DNA of 33,344 bases from a bacterium (GTDB lineage Bacteria > Elusimicrobiota > Elusimicrobia > UBA1565), in NCBI GenBank assembly GCA_004322435.1, contig SCTT01000387.1, positions 1-33,344 on the forward strand, read 5' to 3'. This document shows, piece by piece, positions 279-18,503 of this stretch. Below the pieces are notes generated by a model. It was not told the origin of the DNA. It made no database searches and saw only the letters and a program-made list of their open reading frames with translations. Positions within the stretch are counted from its first letter, which is position 1; each line of letters opens with the position of its first letter. The translations under genes and the position numbers were made by a program.

Positions 279-2198
279 ATGTCCACAGACTCGTGCGGTT
301 GGAACTCTGATTTTCAGGCCCTCGGAATGGAGAGTCCGCGCGTCATCCGCATTGCACTCGAAGACTTCGTTAGAAATGTCTCAGCGGAGCAACTTAAGGC
401 CTGGGATGAAGAGATCGATATTCTCCAGCGCGAGACGGGGCATTCTATCGTCAGGGATTCCGCAACTAGACTCTATACCGCGATTCTCGAATATCAACTT
501 CCCTTGGAGTCGCGTCGCCCTGACGTCATATTCCTCCAAAATGGATCTGTCGTCGTAGTCGAATTCAAATCCAAAGGGCGCGCTTCACGCGCCGACCTCG
601 ACCAAGTCGCCGCCTATGCTCGTGATCTCCGCTGCTATCACCGTGAATGTGCCAATCGCGTCGTTCATGCCATCCTCATCCCGACTCGACTGGATCGACC
701 GGGCCGCGAAATCGACGGTGTTCATGTCGCGCCGCCCCACAAACTCCCCGAACTAATCCTTCGCCTGGCAGCCCAAAGCGCTCCAACCATTACACCGGAG
801 CTTTTCTTGCGCGAGGATGCCTATTCCCCCTTACCAACACTGGTCAAGGCAGCCAGAGAGCTATTCCAATCAAAGACCGTGCGAAAGGTGTGGCGCGCCG
901 CGGCTTCCACCGATCCCGCCGTTGACGAAATCACAAGAATTGCCCACGAAGCGCATGCGACAAAGACGCGACGCCTCGTACTCCTAACGGGCGTCCCGGG
1001 GGCGGGAAAGACCCTCGTTGGCTTGCGGTTGGTCCACGCCAAGTTTCTCGACGATCTTGCCGTAGCTAGGGCCGATGGGAAACCCGCGTCACCGGCAGTT
1101 TTTCTCTCCGGCAATGCCCCGCTCGTGCAGGTCCTTCAGTATGAGCTTCGTAGTGCCGGAGGCGAAGGCCGCACCTTCGTCCGGGACGTTAAGAAGTACG
1201 TGTCGACCTATGCCGGCAGACCCAATCTGCGCCCCCCCGAACACCTCCTGGTCTTTGATGAAGCCCAAAGAGCGTGGGACGCGGAAAGGGTTGATGCCGG
1301 CCATCAAGGGGACAGCATCGCCACACGAGGTAAGTCAGAGCCTGAACACTTTGTGGAGTTTGCGGAGCGCATCCCGGATTGGTGCGTCATCGTCGGCCTC
1401 ATCGGAAGTGGCCAGGAAATCCACGTGGGCGAGGAGGGAGGGCTTGGCCAGTGGCGCAAGGCGGTCGAGCAATGCAAGGAGTCTGAGAAATGGGTCATCC
1501 ATGCCCCCCAACAACTAGATGCCATTTTCTCAGGAAGCTCTGCCAAAATCCAGCACCACGACTCTTTAAATCTGACAAAAGAAATCCGATACCACCTGAC
1601 AACCCATATCCATCAATACGTGGAGGGCCTCCTCGAGGGCGCGCCAAGTTCAGAGCTTAAAGAACTTGCGACACAACTTTCGGTTGCTGGTCATCGATTC
1701 CTGGTCACACGAAGCTTGGAGCTTGCCAAACAATACGTCCGAGATCGATACTTGGAGAATGCGGATGCTCGTTATGGTTTAGTTGCGTCGGCCAAAGACA
1801 AGCTTCTCGAAAACTGTGGGGTGCCAAACTCCTTCCAAGACACCAAGCTGCTTAAGGTCGGTCCCTGGTTTTCGGATGGGGAGGACAGCGCGCTTTCCTG
1901 CCGACGGCTCGACAAGGTCGTTACGGAATTCCAAGTACAAGGTCTCGAGTTGGATTGCGCCGTCTTGGCCTGGGGATCCGACTTTATATGGAACGGATCA
2001 AGGTGGTCGAATGATCTGGCGCGTGGATATAAAGACAAGAATGCCGTCAAAGACCCGTTCAAACTCCGTCTGAATTCTTACCGTGTTCTATTGACGCGGG
2101 GACGAGACGGAACAGTAATTTTTGTGCCTGAAGACGCCAGGCTGGACGCGACACATCAACGCTTGTTGGAATGCGGCATGATAGGATTGGAGACCTAA
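279..2198 (+). CDS. DUF2075-type P-loop NTPase/helicase-like protein with N-terminal PD-(D/E)XK-like nuclease region
   Basis: 639 aa; N-terminal RPDVIFLQNGSVVVVEFKSKG (D...ExK pattern), Walker A GVPGAGKT, Walker B-like LLVFDEAQRAWD, C-terminal YRVLLTRGRDGTVIFVP as in DUF2075 proteins. Locally less GC-rich than neighbours by eye. Confidence 0.8.
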   Translation: MSTDSCGWNSDFQALGMESPRVIRIALEDFVRNVSAEQLKAWDEEIDILQRETGHSIVRDSATRLYTAILEYQLPLESRRPDVIFLQNGSVVVVEFKSKGRASRADLDQVAAYARDLRCYHRECANRVVHAILIPTRLDRPGREIDGVHVAPPHKLPELILRLAAQSAPTITPELFLREDAYSPLPTLVKAARELFQSKTVRKVWRAAASTDPAVDEITRIAHEAHATKTRRLVLLTGVPGAGKTLVGLRLVHAKFLDDLAVARADGKPASPAVFLSGNAPLVQVLQYELRSAGGEGRTFVRDVKKYVSTYAGRPNLRPPEHLLVFDEAQRAWDAERVDAGHQGDSIATRGKSEPEHFVEFAERIPDWCVIVGLIGSGQEIHVGEEGGLGQWRKAVEQCKESEKWVIHAPQQLDAIFSGSSAKIQHHDSLNLTKEIRYHLTTHIHQYVEGLLEGAPSSELKELATQLSVAGHRFLVTRSLELAKQYVRDRYLENADARYGLVASAKDKLLENCGVPNSFQDTKLLKVGPWFSDGEDSALSCRRLDKVVTEFQVQGLELDCAVLAWGSDFIWNGSRWSNDLARGYKDKNAVKDPFKLRLNSYRVLLTRGRDGTVIFVPEDARLDATHQRLLECGMIGLET

Positions 2199-3230: not shown

Positions 3231-3283
3231 GAAGGGAACTAATTCGGGGGGTAAAACGTACGTGTGGGTATGGGCTCCCCAAC
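3231..3283 (+). repeat. Dispersed ~50 bp repeat, copy A (upstream of TA module 1)
   Basis: gaagggaactaattcggggggtaaaacgtacgtgtgggtatgggctccccaac; aligns with copies B, C and D in this window. Confidence 0.85.
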
Positions 3284-3299
3284 AACTCAGCCGCCGCCA

Positions 3300-3328
3300 T
3301 TGACGACGAGTAGCTTTCACGCTACTCT
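3300..3328 (+). promoter_or_regulatory. Candidate promoter/operator of TA module 1
   Basis: TTGACG (3300-3305), 17 bp spacer, TACTCT (3323-3328), overlapped by inverted repeat GAGTAGC-tttcac-GCTACTC (3308-3327). Confidence 0.5.
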
Positions 3329-3341
3329 AGGGATGTGACCG

Positions 3342-3677
3342 GTGGAAGGCGGCGGGGTCGAGCTTCTCCTCTATCGGACCGCTTCCGGGGACTGTCCCGT
3401 CAGGGCTTGGCTGGAGTCCCTGGACGCGCAGGTCGAGGCGCTCGTCGCCAAGCGCTTTGACCGAGTCCGGCGGGGGCTATTCGGGGACACGAAACTCTTA
3501 GGGGGCGGTGTTTGGGAGCTCAAAATAGACGTCGGGCCGGGCTATCGAATCTACTACGGACTGGACGGCCCGCGGGTCGTCGTTCTTCTATGCGCCGGTC
3601 AAAAGGACGCGCAGGAAAGGGACATCGCAAGGGCGCGGGCGTACTGGGAGAGTCACCTGCGGCAGAAGGGTCTATGA
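3342..3677 (+). CDS. RelE/ParE-superfamily (HigB-like, addiction module killer protein) toxin
   Basis: 111 aa, GTG start; GGGVWELKIDVGPGYRIYYGLDGPRVVVLLCAGQKDAQERDIARARAYW pattern of this toxin family; overlaps antitoxin start by ATGA. Confidence 0.88.
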   Translation: MEGGGVELLLYRTASGDCPVRAWLESLDAQVEALVAKRFDRVRRGLFGDTKLLGGGVWELKIDVGPGYRIYYGLDGPRVVVLLCAGQKDAQERDIARARAYWESHLRQKGL

Positions 3678-3967
3678 GCGGCACGGTCAGATATGAGGAT
3701 TATCTTCACGAGCGGCTCCGGAACCCGGAATTCGCCGTCCTGTATCTCAATGCGAGCTTGGATTCCGACGACGACGGCGACTTCCTGTTCGCCTTGGGCG
3801 AGGTGTCCCGGGCCAACGGCGGCGTGCGTCCGCTAGCCGGGAAGGCGGGGCTCAATCGCGAGCACCTGTTCCGCATGCTCTCGAAGACGGGAAACCCCGG
3901 GCTCCACAGCCTAAGGCAGATCCTCGATGCTCTGGGATTCCGTCTAGAGCTAAAGCGGGCGGCCTAA
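3674..3967 (+). CDS. HigA-like XRE-family antitoxin (addiction module antidote)
   Basis: Part of ORF 3512-3967; ATG 3674 overlaps toxin TGA; AGKAGLNREHLFRMLSKTGNPGLHSLRQILDALGFRLEL HTH typical of the family. Confidence 0.87.
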   Translation: MSGTVRYEDYLHERLRNPEFAVLYLNASLDSDDDGDFLFALGEVSRANGGVRPLAGKAGLNREHLFRMLSKTGNPGLHSLRQILDALGFRLELKRAA

Positions 3968-3975
3968 AGCCCGCC

Positions 3976-4749
3976 CTACATCCGCGCGCGCAGGTAGGCT
4001 TCCTCGGCCGGGTCCATGAAGGCGCTCAAATCCCCGCGGCGCCCGGCCTGCCATTCGATGTACACGAGCTCCACGCAGACGGCCCAGTACTCCCGGCCGG
4101 ACTTGGCGGCGTGGAGGTCCTCGCCGTGGCGGCGCGGCAGGCGCAGCGCGCCCAACAGCTGCCGCGCCCGCGGGGAGAGCGGCCGGCTGTCGTCGTCCTC
4201 GGGGCCGCGCGAGCGCCAGACCTCCACCCAGAACGCCGCCAGCGCGTCGCGGTAGGCGGGGGTGTCGTGGCGCAGGGCCATGAAGGCGTTGACCGTGCCG
4301 CGGTCGATGAACTCGAGCGTGTGAGCCAGCTCATGGGCGAGGATGGCGGCCATGTCCTTGCCGGCGGGGGCGTAGAGCGTGATGGCGCCGTCGCCGGCGC
4401 TCGTGCCGTCGGCGGGCGAGCTTGCGGGCAGGTCCTCCCAGACGAGCTTGGGCGGGCGGGCCGGGGCGACGAGCTTGGGCATGCGGCCGAGGAGGCCCGC
4501 CAGCGTCGAGAGCACCTCGCGGCGGCGCTCTTCGGGGCAGGGTTTGCCGGAGCAGGTGACGGATACGGTCTCGGGGGTGAGGCCGTAGGCGGCCAGCGCG
4601 GCGGTTTGGCGGGCGTCGCGCGCGGCGGCGAAGTCCGCCACGGCCGCGCGGGCGCGAGCGGCCGGGACGGCCATTTGGGCCCGCGCCGGAGAGGCGAGCA
4701 GGAACGGGAGCAGCCAGGCGGCCCTCATAGAGTCAGGGTAGCCGCCCAA
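3976..4749 (-). CDS. Secreted putative zinc metallopeptidase (zincin, HExxH)
   Basis: Signal peptide (MRAAWLLPFLLASPARAQ), HELAH motif (MAAILAHELAHTLEFI) and downstream Glu candidates (GREYWAVCVELVY). Confidence 0.65.
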   Translation of the reverse strand: MGGYPDSMRAAWLLPFLLASPARAQMAVPAARARAAVADFAAARDARQTAALAAYGLTPETVSVTCSGKPCPEERRREVLSTLAGLLGRMPKLVAPARPPKLVWEDLPASSPADGTSAGDGAITLYAPAGKDMAAILAHELAHTLEFIDRGTVNAFMALRHDTPAYRDALAAFWVEVWRSRGPEDDDSRPLSPRARQLLGALRLPRRHGEDLHAAKSGREYWAVCVELVYIEWQAGRRGDLSAFMDPAEEAYLRARM

Positions 4750-4817
4750 GCCCCCGCGGGGCAGGGCCGTGCGGCCTAGGGGAAAACCGGCGTTGGGCCT
4801 ACCATCCGGACCCGAGG

Positions 4818-4870
4818 ACGAGGGAACTAAAACGGGGGGTCAAGCGTACGTGTATGTATGAGCACCCCAA
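4818..4870 (+). repeat. Dispersed ~50 bp repeat, copy B (upstream of TA module 2)
   Basis: acgagggaactaaaacggggggtcaagcgtacgtgtatgtatgagcaccccaa; aligns with copies A, C and D. Confidence 0.85.
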
Positions 4871-4875
4871 GGGGC

Positions 4876-4903
4876 TTGACGTATGTAACCTATAGGTTAT
4901 ACT
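4876..4903 (+). promoter_or_regulatory. Promoter/operator of TA module 2
   Basis: TTGACG (4876-4881), 16 bp spacer, TATACT (4898-4903); perfect 14 bp palindrome TAACCTATAGGTTA (4886-4899) between and overlapping the boxes. Confidence 0.65.
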
Positions 4904-4907
4904 TGTT

Positions 4908-5234
4908 ATGAAGGCTCCCTTCGAGCTGCGGCGATACCGGGACTCCGATGGACGGTGCCCGTTTTCTGAATGGATTTCGGGTTTGGACGACCCGACGGCG
5001 GCGCGGGTGATGGCGTACGTCGACAGGATGAAGGGTGGGAATTTTGGGAAGTCCAAGCCGGTCGGAAGCGGCGTCTCGGAGCTCAAGATCGACTTCGGGC
5101 CGGGCTTCCGGGTGTATTACGTCCGGGACGGCGACGTCATCGTCGTGCTCCTCTGCGGCGGGAATAAGGGTTCGCAGGGAGCGGATATCCGGAAAGCGAT
5201 GGGATACGCGGCCGATTACAGGGATAGACTATGA
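4908..5234 (+). CDS. RelE/ParE-superfamily (HigB-like) toxin
   Basis: 108 aa, GSGVSELKIDFGPGFRVYYVRDGDVIVVLLCGGNKGSQGADIRKAMGYA; overlaps antitoxin start. Confidence 0.9.
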   Translation: MKAPFELRRYRDSDGRCPFSEWISGLDDPTAARVMAYVDRMKGGNFGKSKPVGSGVSELKIDFGPGFRVYYVRDGDVIVVLLCGGNKGSQGADIRKAMGYAADYRDRL

Positions 5235-5545
5235 AACGCAAAGCGTCCTACGTTTCGCATGACGAGGAACAGATTCGCGAGTTCCGCGCGCGCCCGAAGC
5301 TCGCGTTGGAGTACCTCAACGCCGCCATCCAGGTGGCATTCGAGGAGAACGACTCCGAGCTCGTTCTCACGGCCCTGGCCACGGTGACGAAGGCCTACGG
5401 CATCAACCGTGTGGCCAAGGACGCCGACCTCAAGCGCGAAAGCCTGCACCGTATGCTCTCCCGGCGGGGAAACCCGGAGTGGAAGAGCATGTTCCGCGTG
5501 ATGAGGGCGCTTCATGTCCGCCCCAACATCGTCCCGGCCATTTAG
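5231..5545 (+). CDS. HigA-like XRE-family antitoxin
   Basis: 104 aa, LALEYLNAAIQVAFEENDSELVLTALATVTKAYGINRVAKDADLKRESLHRMLSRRGNPEWKSMFRVMRAL; ATGA overlap with toxin stop. Confidence 0.9.
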   Translation: MKRKASYVSHDEEQIREFRARPKLALEYLNAAIQVAFEENDSELVLTALATVTKAYGINRVAKDADLKRESLHRMLSRRGNPEWKSMFRVMRALHVRPNIVPAI

Positions 5546-5599
5546 GGGATGTAGGAGCCGGCAGGGCCGCGACGCGGGCCGCGGCGCTATAATCCCGCT

Positions 5600-6253
5600 A
5601 TGACGCCCCCGAGGGCTTTCTTGTTCGACATGGACGGCGTCCTCTGCCACAACATGCCCGCCCACGAGGAAGCCTGGCGGCGCTTCTTCCGCGCCCGCGG
5701 CATCGAGATAGACTTAAAAGACTTCCGCGAGAACACCATGGGCCGCCCCACCCGCGAGGTCCTGCGCTATTACTTGAAGCGCGACGTGCCTCCCGCCGAG
5801 GCGGCGGCGCTGGCCCACGTCAAGGAAACCCTCTACCGCAGGCTCTACGGCCCCAAGCGCCGCGCGCTGCCCGGACTGCGCGCCCTGCTGCGGGAAGGCC
5901 GGCGCCGCGGCTGCCGCCTGGGCGTGGGCACGGGCTCCAAGGACGACAACGTGACGTTCATCTTAGACGGGATGAGCCTGCGCGCGAGCTTCGACGCGGT
6001 GGTCGACGGGGGGATGGTCAAGAAGGGCAAGCCCGACCCCGAGACCTGGCTCATCTTGGCCGACAAGCTCAAGACCCGCCCCAAAGACTGCGTCGTCTTC
6101 GAGGACTCGCTTCTGGGCGAGGAGGCCGCGCGCCGCGCCGGGATGGCGGTGGTGGGGGTCACGACCTCGCACCGGGCCCAGGAGTTCCGTCACGCGCGTC
6201 TGCGCGTGCGGGACTTTCGAAGACTGAGCGTCCGCCGGGCCCTAGCGGAATAA
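5600..6253 (+). CDS. HAD-superfamily hydrolase, beta-phosphoglucomutase/phosphatase-like
   Basis: FLFDMDGVLCHNMPAHEEAWRRFF (DxDG), VGTGSKDDNV, KKGKPDPETW, CVVFEDSLLGEEAARRAGMAVVGV. Confidence 0.9.
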   Translation: MTPPRAFLFDMDGVLCHNMPAHEEAWRRFFRARGIEIDLKDFRENTMGRPTREVLRYYLKRDVPPAEAAALAHVKETLYRRLYGPKRRALPGLRALLREGRRRGCRLGVGTGSKDDNVTFILDGMSLRASFDAVVDGGMVKKGKPDPETWLILADKLKTRPKDCVVFEDSLLGEEAARRAGMAVVGVTTSHRAQEFRHARLRVRDFRRLSVRRALAE

Positions 6254-6260
6254 AGCCGGG

Positions 6261-6569
6261 TCAGCCGTGCGGCAATTCGGCCCGCAGCGCCTTGCAGACC
6301 TTCGCCACCAGGGCCAGGTTCGGGGCGACCTTCCCGGTCAGCAGGTTGTAGGTCGAGCGCCTGGGGATGTGGTGCCGCTTCTCGAGTTGGGTCTTGTTGA
6401 GGTGGCGCAGGCTGGCGGCCAGGACCTCCGCGGCGGAGTCGGCGTCGCCTTCTTCGAGGCATTCCATGAAGGTCTTGAAGACCAGTTCGCTGTTGGCCAG
6501 GGTCTTCGACGTGTCGTGGTCGAGGAGGCGGCCCTTGCCGGTCTTCTTGCGGTCAGTTCTCGAGGTCAT
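6261..6569 (-). CDS. XRE-family antitoxin of TA module 3
   Basis: 102 aa, LNKTQLEKRHHIPRRSTYNLLTGKVAPNLALVAKVCKALRAEL HTH; overlaps toxin 3' end. Confidence 0.8.
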   Translation of the reverse strand: MTSRTDRKKTGKGRLLDHDTSKTLANSELVFKTFMECLEEGDADSAAEVLAASLRHLNKTQLEKRHHIPRRSTYNLLTGKVAPNLALVAKVCKALRAELPHG

Positions 6570-6870
6570 GTTCGTACTCCGCCTTCAGGCGTCGCGCTTT
6601 GCGGATGTCGCCTTTCTGCGTGCCCTTGAAGCCTCCCCACAAGACGAGGACGTCGATCCCCTGGATGCGTTTGCGCGAGTAGTAAATGCGCATGCCGTTG
6701 GCCCATTTGAACTCCAGGAGCCCCTCGCCAAGGTCCCGCGAGGCGCCGAAATGGCCTTGTTTGGCCCGGTCCAGGCGGGCATCGACCCGCGTCCGTTCGG
6801 TCTCGGAGAGCTCGGAGTACCAGTCATGGAATTCGGGGGTCTTTTTGAGGACCAGGGAGGGCTCGCTCAT
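6553..6870 (-). CDS. RelE/ParE-superfamily (HigB-like) toxin of TA module 3
   Basis: 105 aa, LGEGLLEFKWANGMRIYYSRKRIQGIDVLVLWGGFKGTQKGDIRKARRLK. Confidence 0.87.
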   Translation of the reverse strand: MSEPSLVLKKTPEFHDWYSELSETERTRVDARLDRAKQGHFGASRDLGEGLLEFKWANGMRIYYSRKRIQGIDVLVLWGGFKGTQKGDIRKARRLKAEYEHDLEN

Positions 6871-6904
6871 GGCACGCTCGAGCCGGAGCTTCCTGGTTCA
6901 ATGA

Positions 6905-6932
6905 GTGTGCCATAAATGGCACACTTTGTCAA
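6905..6932 (-). promoter_or_regulatory. Candidate promoter/operator of TA module 3
   Basis: Minus-strand TTGACA (6932-6927) and perfect inverted repeat GTGTGCCAT-aa-ATGGCACAC (6905-6924). Confidence 0.6.
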
Positions 6933-6934
6933 GG

Positions 6935-6985
6935 GGTTCGGCTCCATACCTACACGTACGCACGACCCCCTGAAAAAGTTCCCTT
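6935..6985 (-). repeat. Dispersed ~50 bp repeat, copy C (upstream of TA module 3, reverse orientation)
   Basis: Reverse complement gaagggaactttttcagggggtcgtgcgtacgtgtaggtatggagccgaac aligns with copies A, B and D. Confidence 0.85.
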
Positions 6986-17990: not shown

Positions 17991-18503
17991 ATGCGCGCGG
18001 CCCTGCTGGCCGTCCTCCTGGCCGCCCCGGCCGCCCTGCGGGCCGCCGCCGACGCCCCCGCCGTCCAGCGCTACTTGGAAAGCCTCAAGCTCGGCGACAA
18101 AATCGAGCACGTGCGCATCGTCTATCCCCCCGTCCCGGACAAGGATTGGTCCAAGTCTCGGGAACCTTTTGGGGGGGTCGAGCGTATACGTATACAGAGG
18201 GGCCAGGCGAAGTACCTGCCCGAAGCGGTGGAGGCCATGACCTTGGGCTTCCGGCGCGGGCGCCTGGTGACTCTGGAGGTCCTGTACGGACGCGAGTTCT
18301 CGAAGAAGAAGCCGCTCGAGCGCCTGGTCTCGGATCTGTCCCTCGAGTACGGCGAGCCGCGGCGCCAAGGGGAGTCCTACTTCTGGTGGGACGACGCCAC
18401 GGTCCTCACGGCTTCCCAGACCCTCCAGCCCCACCCCTCCGGCAAGGGCGACGAGCTCCTCAGCACCCTGTCCGTCATGGACCGGGCCTACTTCCGACCC
18501 TAA
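17991..18503 (+). CDS. Exported hypothetical protein carrying an in-frame dispersed repeat
   Basis: Signal peptide; start overlaps preceding stop (TGATG); contains SREPFGGVERIRIQRGQ encoded by repeat copy D. Confidence 0.7.
   Translation: MRAALLAVLLAAPAALRAAADAPAVQRYLESLKLGDKIEHVRIVYPPVPDKDWSKSREPFGGVERIRIQRGQAKYLPEAVEAMTLGFRRGRLVTLEVLYGREFSKKKPLERLVSDLSLEYGEPRRQGESYFWWDDATVLTASQTLQPHPSGKGDELLSTLSVMDRAYFRP
18155..18205 (+). repeat. Dispersed ~50 bp repeat, copy D (intragenic)
   Basis: gtctcgggaaccttttgggggggtcgagcgtatacgtatacagaggggcc aligns with copies A-C; more diverged. Confidence 0.7.

Follow-up and report, generated by a model that had tools for sequence, protein, structure and literature searches.

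A candidate extracytoplasmic function sigma-factor promoter ahead of comEC and toxin–antitoxin modules in an order of Elusimicrobiota

Sigma-driven competence is known from Firmicutes, where ComX/SigX in streptococci and SigH in staphylococci, listeria and lactobacilli are the competence sigma factors (PMC7665891, PMC3486894, PMC4754846, PMC3364868), and competence-regulated toxin–antitoxin (TA) operons are known from Gammaproteobacteria. The toxTA operon of Haemophilus influenzae (HI0660/HI0659) has a competence promoter of the CRP-S type, which uses CRP and Sxy, plus an internal promoter repressed by the antitoxin, and hicAB of Escherichia coli has a promoter P1 under the competence regulator and a promoter P2 near the toxin start that is repressed by the antitoxin (PMC6957337). 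As that paper shows, the competence-regulated pair of Haemophilus is HI0660/HI0659 and not HI1419/HI1420. Among Elusimicrobiota, Endomicrobium, which belongs to another class than the genome studied here, conserves and expresses comEC, comF, comM, ssb, dprA and recA (PMC8809381); the main text of that paper contains no form of 'sigma' or 'regulat-' and hence proposes no regulator. No competence regulator for Elusimicrobiota was described in the literature that we searched, and searches restricted to open-access papers gave nothing relevant on an extracytoplasmic function (ECF) sigma factor controlling comEC. Here we analysed a stretch of 33,344 nucleotides (the window; GenBank assembly GCA_004322435.1, contig SCTT01000387.1; GTDB lineage Elusimicrobiota, Elusimicrobia, UBA1565), in which a repeat of about 50 bp precedes each of three TA modules, A, B and C, together with its source genome and relatives from the same order.

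A promoter-like repeat in the window and across the order

The repeat is very likely a promoter, and most likely one for a single ECF sigma factor. The -35 box was GGAAC(T)TTTT and the G-rich spacer GGGGGT; the -10 box was CGTA, with an extension that differed between genomes. These parts were arranged as GGAAC-N17-CGTA with an ATG at a fixed offset of 34 or 35 nt from the first G. In a set of 145 sites, 118 of which came from relatives within the order, an ATG was found at one of these two offsets in 71 sites and at any other offset in at most 6, and 47 of the 71 ATGs started long open reading frames (ORFs). The boxes themselves were imposed by the search, and independent evidence therefore comes from the other positions only, the ATG included. 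Source-genome genes that had no ATG at the predicted transcription start (+1), for example at loci L011, L038 and L092, carried a ribosome-binding site and an ATG slightly downstream. Since the ATG at +1 was often the start codon, and was otherwise replaced by a ribosome-binding site with an ATG nearby, we read the repeat as a promoter whose transcripts would start at about that ATG; mRNAs beginning at an ATG of offset 34 or 35 are predicted to be leaderless.

The three window copies lay where the initial annotation had placed them, in the orientations it had given, with cores at 3234-3272 (+), 4822-4860 (+) and 6945-6983 (-), and the three matches compared with 0 expected from 100 shuffles. 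It had also described each copy as facing a toxin gene from about 40-65 bp upstream, which agreed with the measured 37-64 bp, and the modules as diverged, which was borne out by toxins A and B being 46% identical and toxins A and C giving no BLAST alignment. Across the source genome, in which the copies number about 27, the 39-bp pattern with up to three mismatches was found at 17 places (0 for the reversed control), and GGAAC-N7-GGGGG-N5-CGTA at 26 places exactly and at 2 more with one mismatch (1 for the reversed control). This genome-wide scan, which the annotation had called for, ruled out an element specific to TA modules, because other genes follow most copies; it did not show the association to be coincidental, as the sites appeared to form a regulon. 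The suggestion of a shared regulatory site was thus right as to regulation and wrong as to its confinement to three modules, which are linked with a whole regulon.

The exact sequence GGAACNNNNNNNGGGGGTNNNNCGTA was present in 35 of the 59 genomes of the order, with 0 for the reversed control. Outside the order, the rest of the phylum gave only scattered matches with two mismatches, at a frequency like that of the control. Across 85,488 species genomes the strict pattern was nearly confined to Elusimicrobia metagenome-assembled genomes (MAGs), the exceptions being four MAGs titled 'bacterium', one Hyphomonadaceae record and one Porphyromonadaceae record. The -10 extension was common to unrelated genes within a genome and different between genomes, even at the orthologous module A of a congener. 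The spacer run GGGGG(G)T, at offset +11 to +17, was found at most targets and was often missing at the sigma and comEC promoters. Because several sigma promoters had no G-run, we take the core promoter to be GGAAC(T)TTTT with CGTA, and the G-run is an additional, non-essential feature, possibly an extra binding site or a structural feature. A weaker conserved block resembling CCGACG was also observed 7-12 nt upstream of GGAAC at the source-genome sites.

An RNA element, another possibility raised by the initial annotation, found no support, as the repeat gave no Rfam match and its folding was unexceptional (z of -1.4, -1.6 and +1.1, with no conserved stem-loop); the repeat also lay mostly upstream of the predicted transcription start. 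A fourth window copy, with a perfect core motif, was located inside a coding sequence at 18161-18186 (+). It is probably a protein-coding coincidence, because the homologous gene in another genus (L217) has the motif at identical codons (REP[FK]GGV.RI), and possibly an internal promoter.

The sigma-factor operon and the genes behind the predicted promoter

Five of the genes downstream of the promoter, from five genera, encoded ECF sigma factors, and a profile built from these five and the source-genome homologue found a relative in nearly every one of the 59 genomes of the order. The sigma orthologues formed one clade with a support of 0.97, separate from eight other sigma sequences of the source genome, and contained PF04542 and PF08281 (regions 2 and 4 only). 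The next gene encoded a zf-HC2 anti-sigma factor (PF13490), assigned by Pfam in one example and by eye in the others, and was followed by a third operon gene for an exported protein. In all 30 sigma orthologues fetched, GAAC(T)TTTT...CGTA was found shortly upstream. ECF operons are usually marked by autoregulation, and we infer that this sigma factor reads the repeat sites. A transcription factor could also bind the repeat, with the ECF gene merely one of its targets; that every sigma orthologue is itself a target fits such a factor, as does the length of the motif, which exceeds that of ordinary ECF promoters and includes a conserved spacer G-run and extra conserved bases. We find this quite improbable, given that the two boxes, separated by 17 nt and situated near -35 and -10 relative to a fixed ATG, have the geometry of a promoter, that the spacer varies freely at the sigma and comEC promoters, and that autoregulation is what an ECF operon usually shows.

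The competence gene comEC was preceded by GGAAC-N16-18-CGTA in 26 of 30 orthologues across the order, and at 25 of these 26 loci an in-frame start codon, ATG or GTG, stood 32-38 nt from the first G. Counted on both strands, the comEC loci gave 35 matches to the forward pattern vs 7 to the reversed control, and the dprA loci 3 vs 1. In the source genome, the repeat was followed by comEC, comF, comM, ssb, ORF6N, DUF222/HNH-like genes, Y1 transposases, BrnT, other TA-like genes and DUF559. The genes comEC, comF, comM, ssb and DUF222/HNH were first recognized by eye, and ComEC, the ComF zinc ribbon, SSB and HNH were later recovered in a Pfam tally of 136 downstream genes. This tally comprised Y1 (repetitive extragenic palindromic (REP)-associated) transposases (13), ORF6N (10), Gp49 (9), DUF1016 (6), HTH_3 (6), ECF sigma factors (5), ComEC (4), BrnT (4), SpoVG (4), RecA (3), ComF zinc ribbon (3), HNH (3) and SSB (2); the first downstream gene was picked by a script rule that gave some wrong frames, so these counts are minima. 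The genes comF, comM, ssb and recA were located behind the promoter in some genomes. RadC, guessed by eye for the gene behind L006, was dropped, as the protein resembles the DUF222/HNH type.

Several other genes behind the promoter were observed. Two promoters stood back to back in divergent orientation at G000:C388:10108-10192 (L007/L046), one before an ORF of unassigned function and the other before a BrnT toxin. In two genomes of one genus, tRNA genes directly followed the promoter, namely six tRNA-Asp(GTC) genes (L225, L227, L245 and L246 in G262; L258 and L259 in G174) and one tRNA-Glu gene (L226 in G262), which are odd members of a competence and TA regulon. A small protein family of about 120 amino acids, to which no function was assigned, mostly with an MRLY N-terminus, was found behind the promoter in four genomes (L092, L144, L166 and L222).

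The thirteen REP-associated tyrosine transposases among the downstream genes, and the many near-identical copies per genome, would also be expected of a mobile or cassette-boundary element, REP-like and moved by Y1 transposases, that had spread in front of TA modules, as the initial annotation had suggested. Such an element is highly improbable, since the position of the copies is set by the distance to start codons, the copies are kept at orthologous sigma and comEC genes throughout the order, and they co-vary with the genome, the -10 extension being genome-specific rather than cassette-specific. Moreover, a conserved stem-loop was not found, and the strict pattern had no match in viral contigs.

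We infer that the programme under this sigma factor is competence. As predicted from the sites, its regulon includes some recombination genes besides the DNA channel, and is short of the full textbook competence set because dprA has no site in nine loci. The same ECF promoter might serve an RpoE-type envelope or general stress regulon, in which the competence genes would be incidental targets and DNA uptake would not be the purpose. The make-up of the sigma operon, in which genes for a zinc-finger anti-sigma factor and an exported third protein follow as in RpoE systems, would suit this explanation, as would the many targets that are transposases, ORF6N, DUF1016 and TA genes and the position of dprA outside the target set. 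It appears unlikely, though it deserves to be kept in mind: few targets are as constant as comEC, comF, comM, ssb and recA recur in turn, and none of the chaperone, outer-membrane assembly and lipopolysaccharide genes typical of RpoE was seen among the matches listed for the 136 downstream genes. The broader proposal is that natural competence in the whole order has a single master switch, an ECF sigma factor controlled by an anti-sigma factor, which commands leaderless comEC, recombination genes, many TA modules and REP transposases, and genes for DNA-binding proteins or nucleases, with a leaderless upstream ORF (uORF) gating the toxin so that only cells taking up DNA produce it. We regard this proposal as plausible and put it forward tentatively.

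Several observations weigh against competence control by this sigma factor. The spacer G-run is atypical of ECF promoters. None of the nine dprA loci had a promoter site, so that the competence regulon is incomplete and dprA was dropped as a target. In the source genome the sigma promoter was degenerate (CGAAC) and lay 436 nt upstream with a small gene between, and the third operon gene was RseB/LolA-like by eye only, with no Pfam match. Of the 30 Gp49 loci examined in the taxonomic family, 14 (11 by the strictest form) had an ECF-type box no more than 450 nt upstream, and the remaining 16 had no site, so not all TA modules carry the promoter. Finally, the co-distribution of sigma factor and G-run motif failed as a test, as nearly all 59 genomes have a member of the sigma family and G-run sites are missing in 24, with presence and absence uncorrelated; this last point is tempered because the G-run is not essential and is often missing from the sigma and comEC promoters.

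Organization of the TA modules

In all three modules of the window (Table 1), a TIGR02683 toxin (HI1419-type RelE/ParE) adjoined a TIGR02684 antitoxin (HI1420-type, sub-threshold in module C), and by these family assignments the modules are predicted type II TA modules of the HI1419/HI1420 type. Within the source genome, the repeat was located just upstream of 4 of 5 Gp49 genes and of 3 of 3 HI1420-type antitoxin genes.

Table 1 Predicted features of the three TA modules in the window.
Feature	Position	Strand	Details
Repeat copy A, ECF-type promoter	3231..3283	+	GGAAC 3235-3239; spacer G-run; CGTA 3257-3260; predicted +1/ATG 3270-3272
uORF A, 22 amino acids	3270..3338	+	Starts at predicted +1; stop 3 nt before toxin A start
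Sigma-70-like promoter, module A	3300..3328	+	TTGACG-N17-TACTCT; by eye, sub-threshold in scan; imperfect palindrome 3308-3327, likely antitoxin operator
Toxin A, Gp49/HigB-like	3342..3677	+	TIGR02683
Antitoxin A, HI1420-type	3674..3967	+	TIGR02684
Repeat copy B, ECF-type promoter	4818..4870	+	GGAAC 4823-4827; CGTA 4845-4848; predicted +1/ATG 4858-4860
uORF B, 17 amino acids	4858..4911	+	Stop overlaps toxin B start (ATGA)
Sigma-70-like promoter, module B	4876..4903	+	TTGACG-N16-TATACT; promoter scan; palindrome TAACCTATAGGTTA 4886-4899
Toxin B, Gp49/HigB-like	4908..5234	+	TIGR02683
Antitoxin B, HI1420-type	5231..5545	+	TIGR02684
Repeat copy C, ECF-type promoter	6935..6985	-	GGAAC 6982-6978; CGTA 6960-6957; predicted +1/ATG 6947-6945
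uORF C, 26 amino acids	6867..6947	-	Stop overlaps toxin C start (ATGA)
Sigma-70-like promoter, module C	6904..6932	-	TTGACA-N17-CACACT; by eye, sub-threshold in scan; palindrome AGTGTGCCATAAATGGCACACT 6904-6925
Toxin C	6553..6870	-	TIGR02683 type; no Pfam match
Antitoxin C	6261..6569	-	Weak HI1420-type match (TIGR02684), below cut-off

The predicted leaderless uORFs span the palindrome and the sigma-70-like promoter in the window modules and end close to the toxin start, with distances from uORF stop to toxin start of +3, -4 and -4 nt in modules A, B and C. In relatives' Gp49 modules with an ATG at +1, these distances were +1, +9, +6, -4, +7 and, in one case, +39 nt, so that the stop was within -4 to +9 nt of the toxin start in 8 of the 9 Gp49-type modules with such an ATG. 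This spacing suggests translational coupling between uORF and toxin. In module B, the end of the sigma-70-like -10 box lies 4 nt upstream of the toxin ATG, and because of this position a transcript from this promoter, which would start at about the inside of the toxin start codon, could hardly yield toxin. The case for such a layout is weaker for modules A and C, because their -10 boxes are farther from the toxin start.

A mechanism consistent with these arrangements can be proposed. The autoregulated ECF sigma factor, whose operon also encodes a zinc-finger anti-sigma factor and an exported third protein, would recognize the repeat and activate comEC above all, and in some genomes comF, comM, ssb and recA, together with REP-associated transposases, DNA-binding and nuclease genes and TA modules. 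At the TA modules, the ECF promoter would give an mRNA for toxin and antitoxin that opens with the short leaderless uORF, and ribosomes finishing the uORF would be passed to the toxin start codon by translational coupling. The second, sigma-70-like promoter at the toxin start, under the antitoxin operator, would yield mainly antitoxin.

Two further features of the window were observed. A Schlafen group 3 helicase-domain protein is encoded at 279-2198 (+), just upstream of the TA cluster. A GC-rich palindrome of 24-36 nt, CCCTCTCCCGC-NN-GCGGGAGAGGG, was present in five copies (13782, 18510, 18549, 26273 and 26909) and is a REP-like element, perhaps tied to REP-type transposases.

Comparison with known systems

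The predicted novelty of this system is that competence in Elusimicrobiota is under an ECF sigma factor with an anti-sigma factor, whose regulon takes in TA modules and transposases and has leaderless transcripts. Elusimicrobiota are largely uncultured, and competence becomes testable in them once the sigma gene is named, the promoter can be searched for in genomes and the targets are listed. The placement of TA modules under a competence promoter, reported for Gammaproteobacteria with two unrelated families in a two-promoter layout and independently predicted here, suggests a general reason linking toxins to DNA uptake.

The operon resembles RpoE/RseA/RseB in its ECF sigma factor, membrane anti-sigma factor, exported third gene and predicted autoregulation, and in the -35 sequence GGAAC, the RpoE-type -35 box being GGAAC(TT). 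It differs in the -10 box CGTA and in its predicted targets, which are DNA-uptake, TA and transposase genes rather than genes of envelope repair. As with ComX/SigX and SigH, an alternative sigma factor would switch on competence genes including comEC; unlike the Firmicutes ComX/SigH systems, it is an ECF sigma factor with a zinc-finger anti-sigma factor, in Elusimicrobiota, with another promoter and largely leaderless predicted targets. To our knowledge, the competence sigma genes of Firmicutes are not followed by an anti-sigma gene. The Endomicrobium competence set comes from the same phylum and shares competence genes with the set described here, though the class differs (PMC8809381). The predicted two-promoter layout of the three modules resembles that of E. 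coli hicAB, most closely in module B, where the second promoter is placed as reported for P2 and for the internal promoter of H. influenzae toxTA; the toxin and antitoxin families are unrelated to those of hicAB, and the regulator is another (PMC6957337). The likeness to H. influenzae toxTA lies in a Gp49/COG4679-type toxin encoded before the antitoxin, and, as predicted here, in a competence promoter paired with a second, antitoxin-repressed promoter that lies at the toxin start or within it (PMC6957337). Unlike toxTA, which has a CRP-S promoter and one module per genome, the system described here has an ECF-type promoter, three or more such modules as well as BrnT and others, and a predicted leaderless uORF.

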